This document shows, in pieces, positions 391 to 23,068 of a DNA stretch of 64,000 bases. The notes beneath the pieces were generated by a model that searched no databases, was not told the origin of the DNA, and saw only the letters and a list, made by a program, of their open reading frames with translations. The stretch comes from Brytella acorum (GTDB taxonomy: Bacteria > Pseudomonadota > Alphaproteobacteria > Acetobacterales > Acetobacteraceae): positions 62,001 through 126,000 of the forward strand of contig NZ_JARBJP010000002.1 of assembly GCF_029309905.1 (NCBI RefSeq), read 5' to 3'. The position numbers and the translations under genes are program-made. Positions within the stretch are counted from its first letter, which is position 1; every line of letters begins with the position of its first letter.

Positions 391-2826
391 TTATGACGGA
401 CGGCGGCGCTTCGCATGGGCGCGTGAAGGCGCGGCGCTCGGGCCTGTCCGCCGCGCTCCACTGCGCTCCACATCCCGTCTTGGGCCTTTGTGGCCCTGTG
501 TTTTGCGTTCGTTTTCGCGGACGCGACTCTGCTGCCGCAGGACGGCTTCGATCCAGTCATTGAGGATGACCGTGTTCGTCTCGGCCATCTCACGATCCGG
601 ATAGGCTTCGGGAAATCGAAGCGACAGCCAGCGCCACGCGACCAGTCGCTTATGGCGTTTTTCGGCACGCTCCAGTTCTTCCCGGTCCGCGTGAACGGGC
701 TGTGGCAGTCGGCCTGTTCCGGGCGGCGGAACGGGGCGGCCTGCCGCATGGTCGCTCGCCCATCGTGTCAGGCGGATGATCCCGTTATCGCGCTCATCCA
801 CCGGGCACATGGCGTAGTTCCAGCGCTGGGTGAGATCGAGGCCTTCGATTCCTTCGAGCGCGGAGGCGATCTCACTCGCCTGCTCCATGTCGGCGAGTCG
901 ATAATTGGGATCGTCGGCGCGCAGGACGGCCCGCTTGATCCGGGCCAGCACGCCATACAGACTGTCCGACTCGATTTCATTGGCCACGGCCCGGACGATG
1001 TCCGCGTCCGGCTGTACGAAGGGACGCAACTCGGCGAGCGGCTCGGGAGGGGCGGCCAGTTTCTTGCGGATATAGGTGGGGCTGCCCGCGTCCGAGAGAA
1101 CGGCGACGACGCCGTCTTCATGTTTGCCGTAGCGTCCCGCCCGGCCGCCGATCTGCTTGATCTCCTGGGTCGTCAGGTCGCGTGTCTGCCTGCCGTCGAA
1201 TTTGCGAAGCGCGCTGAAAACAATACGCTTGATGGACAGGTTGAGACCCATGCCGATGGCGTCGGTGGCCACGAGGACGTCGGCATCTCCGTCATTGAAC
1301 CGCGCGGCTTCGGCGCGGCGGACTTCCGGGCTGAGCGCCCCGTAGACGACCGCGACGCGACGACCGCGCGCCAGAAGCTCGGCGCGAAGATCGAGCACTT
1401 CCCGGCGGGAAAACGCGATAACGGCGTCACCCTGCGTCAGTTCGCTGAGGCGCACCGGCAGTTCTGCCGCACGGAGAGGGCTTTTACGCTCAAGGTGGAT
1501 TTCGTCGAGCGGATCGTCGCAGAGTTCGGCGATCCGTCGCACCATCGGAATGCAGTCGGGCGCGCCGAGAACATAGAGATGACGAGCGGGCGCGCCCATG
1601 ATGGCGGCCGTCCAGGCCGCGCCGCGATCGGTGTCGCAGAGCATCTGCGCTTCGTCGATGATCGCGACGTCCACCGGATTGTGGAACGGGCACATTTCGA
1701 CGGTCGCGGCCAGATGGCGCGCACCCGGCATGACAATCCGCTCTTCGCCGGTGGACAGGGACGCCGGGACGCCGCGCGAGAGCAGAGCTTCGCGGAATTC
1801 GTGCGCCAGCAGACGCAGCGGCGCGAGCGCCAGACCGGATTCGGCGCCGGCGAGCGCGTTAAGGGCCGTATAGGACTTGCCGCTGTTGGTGGGGCCGGTG
1901 ACGAGCGTGATGCGCCGTTGCAGCGCCCGCGCGGTCCGGAAATGGGCGGCGTAACGATCGAGCGCCGCCACGCGCGCGATGATCGCGTTGCCAACCTTGC
2001 GCCCTGCGAGCGGCGCATTTTCATCCGCAAGCCCGCTTTCGCGTCCCCGCCACTCCGAGAGATTCCGGCGCAGCCTGACGAGAGCTTCGGGGTCGAACAG
2101 GAAATGTTCGGTGCCGTCATCCTGCGGAACGCGCCGGGCGACAGGAATGCGATTTTCCGCGATCCAGCGCAGAACTTCGCGCGGACTGCAATGCAGAATG
2201 GCGGGAATCTCGTTGAACGAAACGAGACTTTCCTCCCATGCGCGCAGACGTTCGTTCTCACGCGCGCGGCGCGCCTCGGCCCGGGCCTCGATCCGCGCGT
2301 CTTCCTCGCGGCGCGCGCGCTCGGCGGCGAGGATTTCATCTTCGAAAGAAACGTCTTCGATGCCGAACGCGCTGGCGATGGTCTGGGCGAGGCGGTCGAT
2401 CTGGCCGCCGGACAGAAACGTGCCCGCATCGTTCATGTCGGCCTGGATCGACTCCATGACCGCGCGCGGCGTGTGAGCCGTTTCCCGCAGCCGTTCCGCG
2501 ACGACGCCGTCGAGCACCTGCCGCAGGGCCTCGGCTGTGGCGCGTGGATCGTGCATGCGCGCCACGGCTTCGAGAATATCGGGTTTGGTGATCCACTGCT
2601 CGCCCGCGCGGCGCGCCAGGTTCATGAGCTGTGACGCCCATTCCTTACGCCGCACGTCACAGAGGCAGCGTTCGAATTCGTGGACGGGGATCTGGTCCGC
2701 GCCGGGAGCGAGCGCGCGCGCGACGAGTCGGGTCAGGCGCGGTATTTCGCGGTCTGTGGGAGTCAGGCCGCTTTCGGCGGCTCCGTGGGCAACGGCGCGA
2801 TCGGCGGGAGAAGATGCGACATCCAT
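391..2826 (-). CDS. SUV3-like DExH-box RNA helicase
   Basis: An 811-residue superfamily 2 helicase resembling mitochondrial SUV3, which unwinds RNA for the degradosome. Seen: Walker A GPTNSGKS near residue 310, the DEAQ box near 390, motif V DAIGMGLNL near 528 and motif VI QIGGRAGRYG near 557. GPTNSGK plus QxxGRAGR is the SUV3 signature. About 300 residues precede the motor, including a charged, Arg/Glu-rich helix just upstream of a segment that looks like a DNA-binding or excisionase-type helix. The frame stays open another 100 codons upstream, but that part lies inside gmhA and reads as antisense-like Ser/Arg sequence. I therefore start at the first ATG after the gmhA stop. No strong ribosome site is visible. 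Role in RNA turnover is inferred from the family. Confidence 0.85.
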   Translation of the reverse strand: MDVASSPADRAVAHGAAESGLTPTDREIPRLTRLVARALAPGADQIPVHEFERCLCDVRRKEWASQLMNLARRAGEQWITKPDILEAVARMHDPRATAEALRQVLDGVVAERLRETAHTPRAVMESIQADMNDAGTFLSGGQIDRLAQTIASAFGIEDVSFEDEILAAERARREEDARIEARAEARRARENERLRAWEESLVSFNEIPAILHCSPREVLRWIAENRIPVARRVPQDDGTEHFLFDPEALVRLRRNLSEWRGRESGLADENAPLAGRKVGNAIIARVAALDRYAAHFRTARALQRRITLVTGPTNSGKSYTALNALAGAESGLALAPLRLLAHEFREALLSRGVPASLSTGEERIVMPGARHLAATVEMCPFHNPVDVAIIDEAQMLCDTDRGAAWTAAIMGAPARHLYVLGAPDCIPMVRRIAELCDDPLDEIHLERKSPLRAAELPVRLSELTQGDAVIAFSRREVLDLRAELLARGRRVAVVYGALSPEVRRAEAARFNDGDADVLVATDAIGMGLNLSIKRIVFSALRKFDGRQTRDLTTQEIKQIGGRAGRYGKHEDGVVAVLSDAGSPTYIRKKLAAPPEPLAELRPFVQPDADIVRAVANEIESDSLYGVLARIKRAVLRADDPNYRLADMEQASEIASALEGIEGLDLTQRWNYAMCPVDERDNGIIRLTRWASDHAAGRPVPPPGTGRLPQPVHADREELERAEKRHKRLVAWRWLSLRFPEAYPDREMAETNTVILNDWIEAVLRQQSRVRENERKTQGHKGPRRDVERSGARRTGPSAAPSRAHAKRRRPS

Positions 2827-2884
2827 ATCTGCGCTTGTGCGGGAAGTCGCGTCGCCCTGCAATGCCGCGTTTGATGAAGAACGT

Positions 2885-3508
2885 TCAACCGCGCGGGCAG
2901 AGCTGGCGTTCCACGAGACCGCAGACGATATGCGCGGCTGTGATGTGGATCTGCTGAATGACAGGCGTCCAATCCGAAGGCGCGCGGAAGACGTGATCCA
3001 CATGTTCGATCGCGCCGGTTTCCGCGCCGCAGAACGCAATGCTCGTGACGCTCTGCCTGCGCGCTTCCTCGAAAGCGCGCAGGATATTGGGCGAGCGGCC
3101 CGACGTGGTGATGCCGAGGAAGACATCGTCGGGGCGACCGAGCGCGCCGATCTGACGGGCGAAGACGTGATCGTACCCGTAATCGTTGCTGATGGCGGTC
3201 ATGCTCGACGAATCGGTTGTCAGCGCGATGGCCGCCAAGGGCCGACGGTCATACATGAGGCGCGCGGTGAACTCGCCCGAAATATGCTGGGCATCGGCGG
3301 CACTCCCGCCATTGCCCGCCACGAGCAGCTTGCCGCCGCCACGAAGAGAGGCGGCAATGACGTCTCCCAGTTCGATCATCTGCTCGAACAGCGCGGTGTC
3401 CTGCGCGAAAGCGGTCATGGCGGATGCCGAGCGATCGAGGAAGTCGCGCATGAACGCACGATCGGCGTTGTGGCTTGCCGTGGTGGCGACGGACTGCGGG
3501 AGCGACAT
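2885..3508 (-). CDS. gmhA: Phosphoheptose isomerase
   Basis: A 207-residue SIS-domain enzyme converting sedoheptulose 7-phosphate to D-glycero-D-manno-heptose 7-phosphate, the first step of ADP-heptose synthesis for the LPS core. Seen: the nucleotide/sugar-phosphate loop GNGGSAADAQH near residues 65-75, ITTSGRSPN further on, and a C-terminal QQIHITAAH helix typical of GmhA zinc and active-site residues. I chose the ATG at 3508 over one 12 codons upstream because AGAAGG stands 9 bases before it, whereas the upstream ATG has no ribosome site. The gene lies 58 bases upstream of the helicase in the same direction. No other heptose genes are nearby. Confidence 0.93.
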   Translation of the reverse strand: MSLPQSVATTASHNADRAFMRDFLDRSASAMTAFAQDTALFEQMIELGDVIAASLRGGGKLLVAGNGGSAADAQHISGEFTARLMYDRRPLAAIALTTDSSSMTAISNDYGYDHVFARQIGALGRPDDVFLGITTSGRSPNILRAFEEARRQSVTSIAFCGAETGAIEHVDHVFRAPSDWTPVIQQIHITAAHIVCGLVERQLCPRG

Positions 3509-8421: not shown

Positions 8422-11400
8422 TCAGTGGCTCGGCGCGGGAACCGGCGGCGCGAAAGCTTCGGGCTTGAGGGCGGTGACAGGCGCTCTGGAGAGTGCGTCG
8501 TTCAGGACGTCCAGCGCCTTGGAAAGCTGCTGGTCTTCGCCTTCGAACGTCGCGTGCGGCATGTTTTCCACGACCACATCCGGTTCGACACCGTGGTTTT
8601 CGACCAGCCAGTGGCCGCTCATGTCGAAATACGGATTTTCCGCCGTTCGCGCCGTGCCCTGGTCGATCAGGCGATCGCCATCGGACAGCCACACCCCGGC
8701 GCCAGCGGTGCGCATGCCGACGAGCGGCGCGATCTTCAGGGATTTGATGCCCTGCGAGAAAGTCTCTCCGTCCGAATAGGTGAACTCGTCGCACAGCACG
8801 ACGAGGTGGCCGCGGAAGGCCTGCTGCATGTTCACGCTGGGTGCGTTGTCATAGCGTGCCCAGAACATCCAGGCTTTGCGCATCAGGCTGGACAGGACCC
8901 AGGAATCGATATTGCCGCCCATGTTGCGGCGCACATCGATGACGATCGCGTCCTTGTCCAGATTGGCATAGAACTCGCGCGTGAAAGCCTCGATATCTTC
9001 GCCCCCCATGGCGCGCAGATGGACATAGCCGATGCGGCCCTTGCTGGCCCTGTCGACGAAGGCGGCGCGGCCCCGTTCCCAGTCACCATATTGCAGGGCT
9101 GCCTCACGTTTATGGCTGGTCGCAAGCACGACCACCCGATGATTCTGCCCGTTCCGTCGCAGGGTCAGGAGAACCTGACGTCCGGCCTGATCGGCCAGGG
9201 CGGATGAGAGATCGGGCGCGCCGACCACGTTCTGGCCGTTCACGGCGATGATCAGATCGCCTTCGCGTGCGTCGACATCGGGTTTGCGCAGCGGGGAGCT
9301 GGCGTCAGGAAGATCCGGATCGCTGGCATAGATATGTTCGATGCGGAAGCCGTCATCCTCACGTTCGATCTGCGCTCCGAGACCAGCGATCAGGTCGGCG
9401 GACGGACGCTGGCCGGTATTGGCGGGGCGAAGCTGTGAATGCAGCGCGTTCAGCTCGCCCATCATCTGCCCGAGCAGATCATCGAGATCCGAACGGTCCG
9501 CGAGACGGTCGATCAGGGGACGATAACGCGTGCGCACCGCATTCCAGTCCACGCCGCGCAGATTGCGATCGTAGAAATGGTCACGATGCAGACGCCAGGC
9601 GTCCTCGAACATGTCGCGCCACTCGGCGCCCGGATCGACGCGCAGCCGCAGGTCTTCGAGCCTGATCGAGTCCGGTCCGACGTCGGGCGGCTGTTTGGCC
9701 CCGGCGGGAAGGAGCATCAGCCGGGGCAGCGCGCTTGGTCGTGGCGTCGTGTCGACGAGCAGGGTCTTGCCATCGGGGGTGGCGTCAAAGGTCGAAACCT
9801 TCGGCGCGAAAGTTTCGACCTTGTGTTCCTTGTTGTCGATATGGATCGACTTCAGCGGATTGCTGTCATCCGTGCCGTCCAGGACGAACAGGAACTCGCT
9901 CGATGCGCGGAGATTGCTGAAATCTCCGGCGGGAACCGGCACCTCATAAAGGCGATCCTTGAGGCCCTCGACCACGATGGCAGCGGGCTTCGCTTTCGGG
10001 TCCGGTTTCGCGTCCGGCTTGACGTCGTCCAGTTCGGTCGCCGGGGCGAAGGGAAAACGCGTCTTCGGCTGAAGCGCGAGAGCATAGATCCCCGTGCGCT
10101 TCGGAAACACCGGCCCGAGGTTACGGTCACCCCAGGGCGAAGCATTGGCAAGCGAGAAATTCCGGTCGGAGAGGAACCAGAGCCAGTGACCGTCCGGACT
10201 GAAGCTCGGGGCGTAGGATTCGTATTTCTCGTCCGTCAGCCACGTCGTCTGGCCGGTCGCGAAGCTATAGAGCGCGATCTGTCGTCGGATGCTGTCGCCT
10301 CGCGTGCGGACAAATGCCAGCGCCTTGCTGTCCGCCGACCATTTGGTCTCCGCATAGCTCGTCGTGCCGTCCTTGGTGGCGTCGTCGATCAGACGCTCCG
10401 CAAGCGTGTGAACGTCCAGGACCATAAGACGTCCCGTCATGTCGGTATGGGCGATGTAGCGTCCGTCCGGCGATACGGTCAGGCTGGTCGGGCCGCTATG
10501 ATTGCCGTGAGTGAGCTGTTCGCCCTTGCCGTTGCCATCCGTCGGAAAGCGCCAGATTTCCGATTCGCCCGTCGAATCGCTGAAGGCATAGACGAATTTA
10601 CCGTCCGGACTCACGGTGGCTTCGCGCAGCCGCAGACCTGGATCGTCAGCGATCTGCACGCGGCGACGCGAGCCCGTGCCCGCGAGAATCACATGACCGC
10701 GAAAGGTCAGCGCGACGGTGTTGCCATCGGCGGAGAGAGAGGTGTCGTTAAGATAGCGGAAGGGATGGTCGAGCCATTGCGGTCGCCGGGCTTCATCGTC
10801 GGAGGCGATGCTGACGGCCACGCGGGCGGGTGCTCCATCCGCGAGGTTGAGACGGTAGAGATCGGCACCGAGCTGATAGACGATGTCGTCGCCGGAAATG
10901 GAGGCCTGTCGGACGCCGAAATCGACATGGTGCGTGAGCGGACGCGCATCCGTGCCATCGAGTGCGTAGCTCCAGAGGTTGTCGCGTCCGTTCTGATCGC
11001 TGACGACGATGAGCCGGTCGTGCCAAAGCATGGGACGTCGCAGATTGACGTCCTGCGGGCCGATGCGCTCCGCTTCCTTGCCGTCATGGAGATTGTAGCG
11101 CCAGAGTTGCGATACGGCGCCGCCGCGATAGGCGCGGAGGTGATCCCGGCTCATGGCGGTGCCAAAGCGGACGAAATAGATCCACTGGCCGTCGGCGCTC
11201 AGGGTGGCATCATTCGCATCGGCGAGCGGGAAGACCCTGCGTTCATGCGTTATGGGGTTGACGCTTGCCAGAATGGCACTGAATCCGGGGCCGGATTTGG
11301 GTGTCGTGCGGTAGATCAGGCCCGCCTTCGCGTCCCATCCGACAGGCATGACGACGCTGTTTTCGAAGGTGACGCGTCGCGGCGGGCCGCCAGCGGTCTG

Positions 11401-18939: not shown

Positions 18940-19869
18940 CTACGGAGCAGCCGGGTCCCGGGCGAGTTCGTCCGGCACTGTACCGCTGATCAGTCCGTGC
19001 GTCATGCCTTCGCGCAGGACGCCGACCCAGTTCGTCATCCATTTGGTCGTGCCGCGCACGAAGTTCTGAGCCAGCGGAGCGTTGGGGAGTTCGGTTTTGG
19101 TCCAGACGGCCAGAGGCGCGATCAGTTCCGTCGATCCAGGCCGCACCGGCGCCAGAAGGGTATCCACCGCGTTGACGTCGGTCGACCCGTCCTTCGTTGT
19201 CGTTGCTCTGAGCCAGACGGCGGTCACGTAAAGTGGTGAGACCGGAAAACCGAATGTATGGAGTCTCTGGAACGCGGTCGTGATCAGTTCGTTCGCGGAA
19301 CCGGTACTTTCAGCGACGCTCCAGCACTCGCGGACGCCATTCTGACCGTCCGACATCACGCGCGCTGCGAAATTTCTGTCATCATGACACGTGTCGTCCA
19401 GCCCGGCCGTCGCATCGGCGGGCAGGGGACGGGTGGTTGTCCTTGCGATGATGACGCCCGTGACGACGCCTCTGTCGGTGCGCGCCAGAATGTTGAAAAG
19501 CTGAACGCCACCCGGCCCGACCTGACCGGTGAGAACCGGATGCCAGGTTCCGGCGGGAAGGGGAAGCGTATGGCCGTTGAATGGCACGCTGCCCACGAAC
19601 GATGCGTTCATGCTTGGTGCGGCGACCCTGTCGGGCGAGTTGCCGGGCTGCTGCGCAGCGCCGGATTGCTGGGCGTCGCTGGACGGCGGACTGCCGCCGC
19701 TGGATGGGGACGCCGGAGCCGTGGTGCCTGGAACGTGGGCAAGCCATGGGGCATGCCGCAACATGAAGGGCGTGGGATAGAGGGCGGCGAGACCGAGAAA
19801 GCCGACAGAGCCGTAGAGCGACCATCTCCAGAGAGGCGCGCGGCGCCACAGACGTGAAAAAGCGGACAT
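18940..19869 (-). CDS. Single-pass membrane protein of unknown function, AAA+ operon
   Basis: A 309-residue protein I do not recognise. Seen: a basic N-terminus and one transmembrane span at about residues 14-34 (WSLYGSVGFLGLAALYPT), a Ser/Pro/Gln-rich linker (about 48-85), then a roughly 220-residue globular domain expected outside the cytoplasm. That domain holds two cysteines (DDTCHDDRNF and VRECWSVAE) that could form a disulfide, and hydrophobic beta-type strands such as GVVTGVIIARTTT. It begins 13 bases after the stop of the Clp-like ATPase gene, so it is very likely co-transcribed. A role as periplasmic partner of that ATPase is an inference from position and topology. Confidence 0.75.
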   Translation of the reverse strand: MSAFSRLWRRAPLWRWSLYGSVGFLGLAALYPTPFMLRHAPWLAHVPGTTAPASPSSGGSPPSSDAQQSGAAQQPGNSPDRVAAPSMNASFVGSVPFNGHTLPLPAGTWHPVLTGQVGPGGVQLFNILARTDRGVVTGVIIARTTTRPLPADATAGLDDTCHDDRNFAARVMSDGQNGVRECWSVAESTGSANELITTAFQRLHTFGFPVSPLYVTAVWLRATTTKDGSTDVNAVDTLLAPVRPGSTELIAPLAVWTKTELPNAPLAQNFVRGTTKWMTNWVGVLREGMTHGLISGTVPDELARDPAAP

Positions 19870-19882
19870 TCTTCGTGGTGGC

Positions 19883-21151
19883 TCAGCTCGTCATGCGGGC
19901 GTGGAGGGATTCGGCCTCGTCGGCGACTTCGGCGTTCACGCCGTTCTCCCCGGCGACGAGCCGGACCATTTTCGCGCCATTCTGACGGGCCATGATCAGG
20001 CTTTCGCTCACCATGTCCTCGATGGAGCGCACGAGATCGCGCGCCGATGCGCCGGTGCCCAGTTTCTGCTGGCGCTGCATGACCTGGAAGAGAACGGCGG
20101 CGTCGATTCCGCCGGGCTCCACGCGAAGGCCGTAGCTGTCGATCATCGCTTCGATTTCCAGTGCGGCAACGCGGGCCAGATCGAGACCGTGCAGTTTGCG
20201 GAACACGAAAATCCGGTCGAGGCGGTTCAGAACCTCCGGCGCGAAACCGGCCTGACGCAGGGCTTCGACCGACTCGGCACGCATGCGGTCGGGATCGGAG
20301 GCGAGACGATCGGCGATCTCGGTCAGGGAGTCTGTCGCAATGTTGGAGGTCAGCATGAAAATGGCGCGCGTGGTGGAAATCTGCGTGCCGGTGGAGGCCT
20401 CCGTGATGTGGCCGTCATTCCAGGCCGTGAGAAACTTCTTGAAAACATCGGGGTGGGCTTTTTCGATTTCATCGAGCAGCACCACGGCGTCGGGCTTTTC
20501 CTGGAGGCCGCCTGTCAGCTTTCCGAATGTGTCTGATCCGACATAGCCCTTCGGCGAGCCGAAAAGCTGTGTCGCGGCGTGAGGGCTCGACATCTGCGTC
20601 ATGTCGAAATGCAGCAGAGGACGGTCCATCTGTCGGGCGATCTGTTTGGCGAGATAGGTCTTGCCGGTTCCCGGAGGTCCCGCCAGCAGGAAAATACCGA
20701 CCGGTTTTCCGCGGACATGCAGGGCGAGACGGCGGCGCAGCTGCTGGGCGATGTCCTCGCAGACCTGATCCTGACCGATCACGCGGGCGCGCAGTGACGC
20801 CGCCAGCTCCTCCGCGTCGATCGTCGTTTCCTTCTGCTCGCGTGCCATGAGCTCTTCAAGCGCATTGCGGTTGGTGAGGCGGGCGAGAACGTCCATCAGG
20901 AATCCCTTTCTGCGGCGGAGCCCTTTACGGGCGAGACGCTCGGCGCGGGTTTCAAACAAAAGCCCCGAGACGGTGAAGAGCGCGCCGAGACCCGCCAGAG
21001 GAAGATAGCCCGGTTCCGCCCATCGCAGGAAGCGTCCGATGGTTGCGAATGACAGATGAAGGGCCATCGCGGCCTGAAGGCTCGCGAGCGCCAGAAAGAT
21101 CACCATCATAACCGGCATCATCCGGTTAAGGAGCGGCATCAGGCTCTTCAT
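19883..21151 (-). CDS. Membrane-anchored Clp-type AAA+ ATPase (single D2-like ring)
   Basis: A 422-residue protein. Two hydrophobic spans (about 11-32 and 48-66) lead through a basic linker into one AAA+ module like the second ATPase domain of ClpA/ClpB. Seen: RVIGQDQVCEDIAQQL, Walker A GPPGTGKT (158-165), pore loop GYVG (202-205), Walker B VVLLDEIEKAHPDVF (223-237), sensor MLTSN, an arginine-finger region PEVLNRLDRIFVF, and a C-terminal small domain (RQQKLGTGASARDLVRSIED). It lacks the Clp N-domain, the D1 ring, the ClpB middle coil and any recognisable ClpP-docking loop. It should pull or remodel substrates at the inner membrane face. Its ATG overlaps the upstream stop (21148-21151). Confidence 0.88.
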   Translation of the reverse strand: MKSLMPLLNRMMPVMMVIFLALASLQAAMALHLSFATIGRFLRWAEPGYLPLAGLGALFTVSGLLFETRAERLARKGLRRRKGFLMDVLARLTNRNALEELMAREQKETTIDAEELAASLRARVIGQDQVCEDIAQQLRRRLALHVRGKPVGIFLLAGPPGTGKTYLAKQIARQMDRPLLHFDMTQMSSPHAATQLFGSPKGYVGSDTFGKLTGGLQEKPDAVVLLDEIEKAHPDVFKKFLTAWNDGHITEASTGTQISTTRAIFMLTSNIATDSLTEIADRLASDPDRMRAESVEALRQAGFAPEVLNRLDRIFVFRKLHGLDLARVAALEIEAMIDSYGLRVEPGGIDAAVLFQVMQRQQKLGTGASARDLVRSIEDMVSESLIMARQNGAKMVRLVAGENGVNAEVADEAESLHARMTS

Positions 21152-21699
21152 TGTTGGATGAGGTCCAGAATGAGCCCGTCACTGGGCCCGGGGATCGTCG
21201 GCATGATCGTCGGTCCGGTTACAAAAAGCGCGCCGATATGAAGCCCGTCGGGGGGCGGCGTGGTCGTGGCGATGATCGTGGCCTGCCCCGCGCCTCTGAT
21301 GGGCAGAACGACGTTCTGGTATTTCGGGCCGAGAACGACATTTTGCGTGATGCCGCTGCTTGTCACGGTTACGACCTGTCCTGCTGCGCCCGTCGCGTCC
21401 CGCATGGGCAGGATACTGAGGCGCATTTCGCGCCGCTTGACGGCGGCCAGGATGTCCGCGCGCGCGGATGGCGGAATCTGACTGTTGGCCAAGGCTTTGG
21501 CCGCGTTCTCGGGCGATATGATCGTGACCTGCGCCAGAGCGTGGGGAAGCGTCGTGCCTGTCGGGGTGCCGGTCGCGGAGCCTGTCGCAGACGCGGGCGC
21601 GACCGCTGTCGCGTCATGTCCCGAGATGTTGTGGGCGGCGAGATAGCCCGTCCCCAGAAGTGCGGCGGCAAGGATCGAGACCTTGGCCGCCATCGCCAT
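21148..21699 (-). CDS. Membrane-anchored or exported protein of unknown function, first gene of AAA+ operon
   Basis: A 183-residue protein I do not recognise. Seen: an N-terminal hydrophobic span (about 4-22, VSILAAALLGTGYLAA), an Ala/Thr/Gly-rich linker, and a domain containing IISPENAAKALANSQIPPSARADILAAVKRREMRLSILPMRD, then beta-rich segments to GLILDLIQQ. I start at the ATG at 21699 because AGGAG lies about 9 bases upstream; the frame is open for 39 more codons upstream with no ribosome site. Translationally coupled to the ATPase gene through ATGA. It probably faces the periplasm. Confidence 0.72.
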   Translation of the reverse strand: MAMAAKVSILAAALLGTGYLAAHNISGHDATAVAPASATGSATGTPTGTTLPHALAQVTIISPENAAKALANSQIPPSARADILAAVKRREMRLSILPMRDATGAAGQVVTVTSSGITQNVVLGPKYQNVVLPIRGAGQATIIATTTPPPDGLHIGALFVTGPTIMPTIPGPSDGLILDLIQQ

Positions 21700-22092
21700 G
21701 GGACTACGCTCCTGCGAACTGTCTTCCCGCGGCTTGAGCCTCATATCGGGTTCTGAAGGGCCATTCATCAATGTCATGTGACAGGGGAATGGATCAGAAG
21801 GCAAGCGCGGGAGCATGTCCGTGGTGTAAACAATCTTTACATCTTCGGCTCCAGCCGTCGCCGTCGGTCGAACCTTGCGCCCATCGTGCTTTCGTGACGG
21901 GTAAAGGAGCCGGGTGAAGCATTCGACGGGCGAGGGATTTATGGGTCATGTCCCGGTTTGAAATTCGGGTTTCGCCTCTTTATGGACGCCAGAGCGCGGT
22001 ATGGTCTTTCCTGAAAGCGGACGTGGCACCATGCCTCCGCGAGGATTGATCTCCGTCGATCCGGTGAGGTTCAAACTGGTTTGTGCTTCCGG
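21700..22092. promoter_or_regulatory. Upstream region of the AAA+ operon with an operator-like repeat
   Basis: This 393-base gap holds no convincing gene. A perfect inverted repeat, TGTAAA (21825-21830) and TTTACA (21836-21841) spaced by 5 bases, stands about 125-140 bases before the operon start and looks like a binding site for a dimeric regulator. It may lie in a promoter for the minus-strand operon. The regulator cannot be named. Confidence 0.4.
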
Positions 22093-22617
22093 TCAGTTGA
22101 AGGCGCCACTGAGATCCTCGTAAGTCGTGCGCTCGGAAACCATTCCGGCTTCGCTGGCGGTGACCTCACGCTCGAGGACGCGGTTCTTGTCAAAGCGGAT
22201 GCGCACCTGCGTTGCCGCCGCCGCGTCGCCGCAGTTCAGGGTCAGGACGAACTGTGTCCAGCCATAGGCCGCCAGACTCGCCGTGTTAACGTCGTTCAGG
22301 GTGGCAACCAAGGAATCAGGAATGTAAACGGTCTTCGGCCCGACCGTGAGCGACAGCTTTTCGACCGGGGAGCAGGTCGTGCGGCCGCCGGAACAGAGGT
22401 GGACCGAGTGGCTCGGCGTAGTGGCGATTACCAGCGTTGCTGTGACTTTCGTGTCGGCGAGGGTTGTCTTAAGGGTAATCGCGCCGGTCGTGGGTATCTC
22501 TGTCAGTGTTGGGGTTGGGGACTCTGCGCTGGCACTTCTCGCGCCGAGAAGCGCGAGAAGTGCGCAGGCGGGCAGCGCCAGGAGGCGGTTGCGCGATGGC
22601 GAGCGGTGCGGGGGCAT
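22093..22617 (-). CDS. Exported protein of unknown function
   Basis: A 174-residue protein with a clear signal peptide (RNRLLALPACALLALLGARSASAES, cut near residue 31). The mature part is beta-rich and Thr-rich with three cysteines: CSGGRTTC, in a spacing that could form a loop or bind metal, and LNCGDAA. I recognise no family. Start chosen at the ATG at 22617, where GGAGAC lies 4 bases upstream; the longer upstream frame has no ribosome site. It points the same way as the AAA+ operon, 393 bases ahead of it, so co-regulation is possible but not shown. Confidence 0.7.
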   Translation of the reverse strand: MPPHRSPSRNRLLALPACALLALLGARSASAESPTPTLTEIPTTGAITLKTTLADTKVTATLVIATTPSHSVHLCSGGRTTCSPVEKLSLTVGPKTVYIPDSLVATLNDVNTASLAAYGWTQFVLTLNCGDAAAATQVRIRFDKNRVLEREVTASEAGMVSERTTYEDLSGAFN

Positions 22618-23068
22618 TGTTGTCTCCGATTGCACTGCAATTCGCAGTTTCAGCAGGAAGAAGGCGGGTAGCCAGAAACATAGGGTAAGCACCTGACGCT
22701 CTTCCATTGAAATGCAATTCACATTACGGCCCAAAAGTTCACTTTTCGTCCTGTGGTAAGATCTTCTAGCTGAAGCAAGGGTCTACCCAGCCGGTATCAC
22801 CCTTCAATACAGCTTAGGGTTCTCGCTGTGCTCCCAGATAAAAGCTGGCCGGGAGTTGCAACTGTATTGGTTAGGACGTCTGCTATCGAGTGTTTCGTGC
22901 TGCGAAGCGGACAGTTACGTCCCCTCCCCAAAAGCGGATATTTCAAACCGGGGCACTGCCGATTTATGGAAAGGCTTGCGTCCGCAGGGGCGATGGCCTA
23001 GGTAAGCGCATCACCTTTATTTCCGTCATGGTTCTGGGGGGTGGCCTTAACGGGCCGCCTTTTTTGCG
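22618..23068. other. Intergenic region between exported-protein gene and rimP operon
   Basis: A 451-base divergent gap, partly AT-richer than its surroundings. It must contain the promoter of the rimP-nusA operon and that of the minus-strand exported protein. I find no tRNA (in enterobacteria a metY tRNA gene sits here). The only clear structure is the hairpin directly before rimP, listed separately. Confidence 0.5.
23040..23065 (+). terminator. Terminator-like hairpin (possible attenuator) in the rimP leader
   Basis: GGTGGCC (23040-23046) pairs with GGCCGCC (23053-23059), with one G-U pair and a 6-base loop, and is followed by six T residues (23060-23065). It ends only 3 bases before the chosen rimP start, so it cannot end an upstream plus-strand gene. 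It more likely acts as an attenuator for the nusA operon. Confidence 0.65.

Follow-up and report, generated by a model that had tools for sequence, protein, structure and literature searches.

Acetic acid bacteria, whose envelope hosts a large share of their chemistry, carry a conserved three-gene operon that is apparently undescribed so far. Its central gene encodes a membrane-tethered ATPase (P0002) whose one AAA+ module resembles the second ring of Clp proteins, and its two other genes encode the envelope proteins P0001 and P0004. Among the 103 genomes bearing P0001, seven have an ATPase changed at its pore loop and Walker B; P0004 is missing from each of these seven, and P0001 is present. 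This joint loss of P0004 and decay of the motor points to P0004 as the motor's target. The operon is conserved across many acetic acid bacterial genera and, as a set, has no counterpart among the named families of the libraries searched; a first-pass annotation of the DNA had known of no described pathway with this layout. We found no published description of it in the open-access literature searched, and the main texts on the Gluconobacter knockout collection (PMC8602642 and PMC12041372) mention neither ClpA, ClpB, AAA, nor nusA.

Locus organization and distribution

The window, a 64,000-nucleotide stretch of the Brytella acorum genome, holds the trio on its minus strand as three open reading frames: P0004 (21148..21768), P0002 (19883..21151; 422 aa), and P0001 (18940..19869; 309 aa). 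The first-pass positions proved real (the start of P0004 is treated below), as did the ATGA overlap coupling P0004 to P0002 (21148–21151) and the 13-base gap between P0002 and P0001. A profile search across the Acetobacteraceae, proposed at the same stage, finds that the three genes co-occur, in the same order in all 80 named acetic acid bacterial loci, a constancy beyond what chance would give. Upstream and divergent lies rimP in 79 of the 80, and an ABC permease is the convergent neighbor in 61. The trio is a vertically inherited chromosomal locus; the constancy of these neighbors leads us to reject an origin in secretion (including type VI), conjugation, or phage, the first two having been raised earlier as a possible affiliation. 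No promoter-like sites were found, and the three terminator-like sites are no more than in shuffled sequence.

Among 150 genomes of the family, 32 carry the ATPase; P0001 is present in all 32, and the 30 genomes bearing P0004 all fall within them. An ATPase, canonical or decayed, adjoins P0001 in 102 of the 103 P0001-bearing genomes, the exception (G049) being a contig end that is counted in the 103 but uninformative. A canonical ATPase together with a P0004 match occurs in 95. Pore loops that differ by one residue (GYMG, GFVG) are placed in this class, and so is G100, taken as P0004-positive though just a fragment of its P0004 lies in frame; the end of the P0004 profile is reached in one frame in 94 of the 95. 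Flanking proteins apart from the ATPase, named at first pass as a refuting observation, are not seen within these sets, but P0001-like ectodomains without the ATPase are found elsewhere (L127–L131). P0001 matches come in pieces in four of the 103 genomes (G125, G570, G611, and G674).

A search with P0002 (E 1e-46) across 289 sampled genomes of the class returned its own genome alone, as did a profile of its N-terminal module across 299 sampled genomes of the phylum. A single close relative of the ATPase turned up outside the family, on a plasmid of Microvirga sp. VF16. Used in turn as a query, it retrieved two of 385 sampled genomes (E 1e-48), both in the trio's family, and among plasmids (E 1e-40) only itself. 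Among the plasmid matches listed (12 of 1936 records), nine are annotated as clpB, tssH, or Clp, two, from Aeromonas caviae and Microvirga ossetica (33.7% identity for the latter), are unannotated, and the twelfth is that of Microvirga sp. VF16; among the viral-contig matches listed (80 of 474 loci), identity is 27–38%, chiefly over the AAA+ part. The Microvirga plasmid limits the constancy of the trio outside the family: its ATPase has intact Walker motifs but no accompanying P0004 match, while an unannotated ORF 10 bases after it corresponds to the P0001 tail and span only, scoring 19.2 bits as compared to at most 8.6 in 2000 shuffles. At the level of sequence this short ORF supports a docking of P0001 on the ATPase; it is uninformative on P0004.

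The membrane-anchored ATPase

P0002 matches Pfam AAA_2 (PF07724) at 1.4e-35 and 123.2 bits (cut-off 27), which places it in the Hsp100/Clp AAA+ group. Its top NCBIfam matches, ClpB (1.2e-48) and ClpA (1.7e-47), cover the second ring alone, the ClpB match spanning positions 553–836 of 853. The earlier description of a membrane-tethered, single-ring Clp-like ATPase is thereby borne out, with two hydrophobic spans and one AAA_2 module. P0002 shares that module, with all its motifs, with the second ring of ClpB and ClpA, but lacks their N-domain, first ring, and middle coil, having instead one ring and an N-terminal hairpin. With one module in 422 aa and scores far under the cut-offs (166 of 1232 bits for TIGR03346, 162 of 993 for TIGR02639, and 146 of 885 for TIGR03345), it is not a ClpA, ClpB, or TssH (ClpV). 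It is 38% and 31% identical to two Clp-like proteins of its own genome.

The motifs named at first pass are all found: Walker A GPPGTGKT (residues 158–165; 20657..20680), pore loop GYVG (202–205; 20537..20548), Walker B VLLDEIEK (224–231; 20459..20482), and the arginine finger, which by analogy to ClpB we take to be R310 (20222..20224), all on the minus strand. By the same analogy, we presume N270 to be sensor 1 and R371 sensor 2. These catalytic-motif residues are 98–100% conserved in the 95 canonical homologues. The hairpin occupies residues ∼12–66 (20954..21118, minus strand) by hydropathy and alignment, with hydrophobic spans at about 13–31 and 48–66; from the basic residues that follow it and the positive-inside rule, we infer that both its ends are cytoplasmic.

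A ClpP loop (hydrophobic-Gly-hydrophobic, between sensor 1 and the arginine finger) was likewise reported as not visible, and none is present in P0002 or its Microvirga relative in one alignment, made against a single reference, the ClpA-like L003 of the same genome (loop VGF); L004 is Lon-like. The tripeptide AGF ahead of the PEVLNR motif aligns elsewhere (at LF of LFTPEF) and not at the L003 loop.

FtsH and the i-AAA and m-AAA proteases are AAA+ proteins in which two membrane spans form a hairpin anchor and the module faces the cytoplasm, an arrangement that P0002 shares. However, the P0002 module is Clp-type and has no HExxH zinc protease motif, and the match to NCBIfam TIGR01241 reaches 19.7 of 600 bits; an FtsH-type protease is rejected. 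Torsin, which works in the ER lumen, is a single Clp-like ring at the membrane with membrane-protein partners and in this resembles P0002, but PF06309 narrowly misses its cut-off (26.1 bits against 27) and covers residues 106–187 only, so this identity is rejected as well. Defense-system models of PADLOC (PDC-M37B, 2e-24; DolB, 8.5e-22) match more weakly than ClpB at 1.2e-48, E-values that come from different libraries, and were set aside.

The envelope partners

Among aligned representatives, picked at different identity cut-offs for the three proteins, identity to the window protein is 76–92% for the ATPase, 29–61% for P0001, and 27–46% for P0004. P0001 consists of a cytoplasmic tail, one span, and an extracytoplasmic alpha/beta domain, as judged from the alignment, a structure model (mean pLDDT 88), and fold neighbors. 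The conserved tail, MSAFSRLWRRAPLWR (residues 1–15; 19825..19869, minus strand), is present as a relaxed motif in 102 of the 103 genomes, and C161 and C182 are invariant in 30 aligned members. P0001 falls under every Pfam and NCBIfam cut-off: the window protein has two sub-threshold Pfam matches (E 0.1), two orthologues give E 0.11 or worse, and five P0001-like paralogues have no Pfam match. The ectodomain aligns with VIA-align to two Mog1 structures (Z 8.2 over 151 residues, and 7.9), as well as to the type VI immunity protein Tli4 (6.5), PsbP (6.2), and the type VI immunity protein Tsi3 (5.8); the Mog1 and PsbP scores are middling on the tool's scale. These likenesses concern the ectodomain alone, at rmsd above 4 Å and 4–14% identity; at most, the modeled ectodomain may share a fold with the Mog1/PsbP group.

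P0004, predicted to be exported or membrane-anchored, has a short cytoplasmic tail, one span, and an Ala/Pro/Thr-rich linker ahead of an extracytoplasmic domain modeled as a helix pair and beta sandwich (mean pLDDT 83, the domain mostly over 90). The ORF at the upstream end of the trio is real and ends at 21148, as annotated, but its true start is probably 21768 rather than 21699: the cytoplasmic tail reads MNGPSEPDMRLKP in the window, near relatives carry an RPEPELxRLP-like tail in frame, and in L007 the stretch from tail to span has no methionine. The 21699 start is a possible alternative because its ribosome-binding site (AGGAG) is better. P0004 too lies under every Pfam and NCBIfam cut-off; a Pfam search on 28 members brought up seven families, one member each, at a best E of 0.029. 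Its VIA-align scores reach Z 5.9, to varied beta-sandwich proteins, and are uninformative on identity. For both partners, Foldseek gave no match at E 0.001, and profiles run against PDB sequences gave only E-values above 0.4.

Loss of P0004 together with motor decay

The distance from rimP to the ATPase is 267–316 bases in the seven genomes with a decayed ATPase, as compared to 714–1077 in 83 canonical loci. No P0004 remnant is found in the seven loci at E 0.05 except for one weak match, in G070, that covers 57 N-terminal residues of a single member at E 0.004 and is perhaps low complexity. Supported tree branches separate decayed from intact genomes in three places (G115 versus G029, G442 and G485 versus G100, and G618 versus G580); at least three separate events are supported. 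The first tree comprised the 69 genomes, out of 103, whose retrieved region contained 120 or more NusA residues; the second had 74 rows, five being added (L308 and L309 yielded no NusA); and the third had 38 hand-picked rows, with change counts excluding ungrouped rows. A sign test on the three independent contrasts gives p 0.25, and three contrasts are unable to reach 0.05.

The decayed frames are open, at 402–472 aa. The ATPases of G442 and G485, the single decayed pair for which dN/dS is informative, are identical at 413 of 427 residues with dN/dS 0.057, and are still under purifying selection. In all seven genomes the relaxed P0001 tail is retained, and the ATPase is better kept over the 11 invariant positions of its hairpin segment than over the 40 of the segment from pore loop to Walker B; the juxtamembrane segment is only 0.43–0.57 kept. 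Because the Walker A lysine is retained in all seven and other residues are retained unevenly (R310 in three of the seven, an aligned pore-loop tyrosine in G618, and two acids, ED, in Walker B of G442 and G485), the decayed ATPases may still bind ATP or hydrolyze it residually. In G100, P0004 is split over two frames and the adjoining ATPase motifs are intact.

Proposed mechanism and alternatives

We propose, at a little short of an even chance, that the operon encodes an inner-membrane machine in which P0004 is the client of P0002, and in which P0001 and the hairpin together make up a scaffold whose role does not depend on the motor. P0002 would be tethered through the hairpin, its AAA+ module lying on the cytoplasmic side, a topology derived from hydropathy, and would assemble into a ring. 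Most likely it would thread polypeptide without transfer to ClpP, since all the residues expected of an active Clp-type unfoldase are there and the alignment shows no ClpP loop. P0001, the constant partner, would dock on the ATPase through its tail and span and act in the periplasm through its ectodomain. The ring would grip the short cytoplasmic tail of P0004 and pull, leading to extraction, turnover, or switching. We name P0004 as client because genomes in which it is deleted altered the ATPase pore loop and Walker B and kept its open frame, a good part of its hairpin, and P0001. Against this stand the intact Walker motifs of the Microvirga ATPase, which has no P0004 match, the small number of independent contrasts, the small genomes, the uneven decay, the modest retention of the juxtamembrane segment, and the P0001 matches that come in pieces. 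If correct, the proposal describes a Clp-type unfoldase built into the membrane with a dedicated client, and nature would have removed client and motor jointly several times, giving comparisons for AAA+ hydrolysis versus a scaffold role. A sharper form, which we regard as conceivable but doubtful, is that P0002 is a single-client Hsp100 whose motor, once P0004 is lost, becomes a selected pseudo-ATPase and membrane scaffold for P0001; nature would then have parted the motor and scaffold roles of one AAA+ protein more than once.

Erosion might instead have struck both genes, since all seven decayed genomes are small (1.9–2.4 Mb), the operon turning dispensable in genome-reduced lineages with P0004 deletion and motor decay as separate steps. 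G066, the sister of decayed G070 (support 100/99), fits such a course in having no P0001 match (E 1e-3) and no ATPase match (1e-60), as does the fragmentation of P0001 in four genomes. Yet the open frames, the purifying selection between G442 and G485, the retained P0001 tail, and the better-kept hairpin speak against this course, and we consider erosion alone unlikely. Small genomes with an intact trio also occur (ten of genus g33, plus G029).

Somewhat less improbable, though still rather unlikely, is that P0002 is a general membrane quality-control unfoldase, with P0001 and P0004 as adaptors or periplasmic folding-state sensors. The complete AAA+ motifs, the FtsH-like hairpin, and the rapid divergence of the envelope domains next to a conserved ATPase all suit that role, in which P0004 loss would be adaptor loss; but one family and one plasmid in the samples searched is a narrow range for a general function, and motor decay is confined to genomes lacking P0004. 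MoxR/NorQ-type and torsin-type ATPases are thought to act as activases, and P0002 could likewise remodel P0001, by itself or as part of an envelope complex, with P0004 modulating the ATPase. P0001 is indeed the most faithful partner, and its tail and span adjoin the Microvirga ATPase. We nonetheless find this improbable, for P0001 persists in the genomes with a decayed motor, and whatever role it retains there does not require motor activity.

Operon layout and conservation

The three minus-strand genes described in the first-pass annotation are present in an ORF reading of the window: in transcription order, those for an exported or anchored protein (P0004), the ATPase P0002 (19883-21151, minus strand), in which a membrane hairpin precedes a single AAA+ module, and P0001, a single-span protein with a cytoplasmic tail and an extracytoplasmic ectodomain. 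Alignment bears out that this module is like the second ring in ClpB and in ClpA, and we rate the ATPase as of the Clp/Hsp100 kind. As had been noted, the end of P0004 overlaps the start of the ATPase gene by four bases (ATGA coupling), and P0001 lies 3′ of the ATPase after a gap of 13 bases. The earlier P0004 start at 21699 is possible and has the better ribosome-binding site, but the start is probably upstream at 21768, since in near relatives a cytoplasmic tail bearing a Pro-rich motif can be read in frame. A further exported-looking protein (22093-22734, minus strand), encoded in the interval that separates rimP from the trio, finds a match in none of 80 named loci (E 1e-3) and is possibly specific to the B. 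acorum genome.

These 80 acetic acid bacterial loci (Acetobacter, Gluconobacter, Komagataeibacter, Asaia, Gluconacetobacter and others) all carry the trio on one strand and in order, as the suggested co-occurrence check had asked. The divergent rimP gene lies upstream in 79, the lone exception being a 9.5-kb contig, and a convergent ABC permease gene lies downstream in 61. The four-base overlap of P0004 and ATPase recurs in 72 of 107 loci, with P0004 found by pairwise search and some species counted twice. Among aligned representatives, picked at different identity cut-offs, the ATPase shares 76-92% identity with its counterpart in the window, P0001 29-61% and P0004 27-46%. The C-terminal Q of P0004 is invariant in 28/28 aligned members.

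Co-loss of P0004 and the motor residues

In a larger sample of 397 Acetobacteraceae genomes, 103 have P0001, and the ATPase was read in each. Canonical motifs and a P0004 match occur together in 95, with the end of the P0004 profile reached in one frame in 94 of these. Seven genomes (G618, G442, G485, G061, G070, G135 and G115) instead carry a decayed ATPase-derived gene. All seven have an altered GYVG pore loop (the tyrosine still aligned in G618, a gap there in four) and an altered Walker B DE pair (ED in G442 and G485); Walker A has lost its threonine in six and kept its lysine in seven, sensor 1 N is lost in six, and the arginine finger R310 in four. P0004 is absent from all seven, where the rimP-to-ATPase distance is short (267-316 bases, versus 714-1077 in 83 canonical loci), while P0001 and a relaxed form of its tail are kept in every one. 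Of the 11 invariant positions in the hairpin segment 0.45-0.91 are retained, and of the 40 from pore loop to Walker B 0.07-0.45; in each genome the hairpin is the better kept. Intermediate values apply to the half with Walker A (0.58-0.79) and to the small domain at the C terminus (0.46-0.72), and the juxtamembrane segment retains 0.43-0.57.

Plain erosion in small genomes, a main rival explanation of this decay that may still apply, is weakened by two observations. In genus g33, ten genomes that are also small (1.9-2.1 Mb) have the trio intact, and the decayed ATPase compared between G442 and G485 gives dN 0.016 and dS 0.289, a ratio of 0.057. This is the informative pair, the remaining decayed comparisons having saturated dS or mixing two classes. 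P0001 in the same pair is similar (0.070); canonical ATPase pairs give 0.022-0.051 in four cases and 0.244 for G046-G125, and the proteins of one further pair do not differ in any residue. G100, sister of G442 and G485, has a canonical ATPase and a P0004 spread over two frames (locus L305, about 2600-3051, minus strand): P0004 may go first, before the motor, or the two frames may be a sequencing error.

In the NusA trees, the best topology needs four changes, of which well-supported branches force three. A tree of 38 rows groups decayed G115 with intact G029 (100/100), G442 and G485 with G100 (98/80), G618 with intact G580 (100/94), and G070 with G066, which is without P0001. Taken at face value, and with decay assumed irreversible, this tree would require five decay events by our count; the branches separating G070 from G061 and G135 are weaker (90/80, 93/77). 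A sign test on the three supported contrasts gives p 0.25, so the co-loss claim rests on the pattern, the G442/G485 dN/dS and the G100 P0004 rather than on this test.

Proposed mechanism

Motifs, hydropathy, gene order and co-loss are the direct basis of our model. P0002 would form a hexamer and thread polypeptide, with the P0001 tail docking on its hairpin. P0004 is read as the putative client because it vanishes together with the motor residues while the hairpin and P0001 remain; the other main rival is a wider membrane quality-control role for the operon. The open-access literature searched yielded no description of the trio.

Docking on the hairpin is in keeping with a relative from beyond the family, a hairpin ATPase of 412 aa on plasmid pMVF16-3 of Microvirga sp. 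VF16. It is 48.8% identical to P0002 over residues 85-406 of the latter, with pore loop GYSG and intact Walker motifs, and the 17 kb read contained no P0004 match. Ten bases behind the plasmid ATPase lies an unannotated ORF (locus L221, 9001-9192, ATG at 9001) with the tail RRLWNEASVWRW, compared with SRLWRRAPLWRW in P0001; it comprises the P0001 tail and span, stops after about 64 residues without an ectodomain, and matches the P0001 tail and span at 19.2 bits, against 8.6 for the best of 2000 shuffles. Since it holds just those parts, tail and span appear to accompany the ATPase even without the ectodomain, though this single sequence may be a truncation. A small protein upstream of this ATPase resembles an ASCH domain.

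Partner structures and distribution

Neither partner is named by any family of Pfam, NCBIfam, PHROGs or PADLOC. AlphaFold models show an alpha/beta ectodomain for P0001 (mean pLDDT 88) and a two-helix plus beta-sandwich domain for P0004 (83), and Foldseek returned zero matches to either at E 0.001. The top VIA-align match for P0001 is a middling one to Mog1 (Z 8.2, 151 residues, rmsd 4.5), followed by PsbP and T6SS immunity proteins, suggesting at most a Mog1/PsbP kind of fold.

The first-pass annotation raised the question whether the flanking proteins occur without the ATPase. In a sample of 150 family genomes P0004 is found in 30, every one within the 32 with the ATPase (E 1e-60); P0001-like ectodomains also occur at other loci. 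The P0001 profile matches 37 of the 150; the five beyond the ATPase set are G061 and G070 (decayed loci with the ATPase under threshold), G049 (a contig end), and G011 and G063 (weak paralogue matches). P0001 matches in two or more pieces in G125, G570, G611 and G674 suggest broken frames or sequencing errors. At the other loci, secreted proteins carry P0001-like ectodomains without the LWxRAPLWR tail. Locus L127 (4229-6669) has two, perhaps three (the third weak), such genes in tandem, in a genome with no match to the trio ATPase (E 1e-60). At locus L128 (4671-6053), in a fusion protein without a Pfam match, one P0001-like domain follows another domain, which we take to resemble a periplasmic ClpP-class protein.
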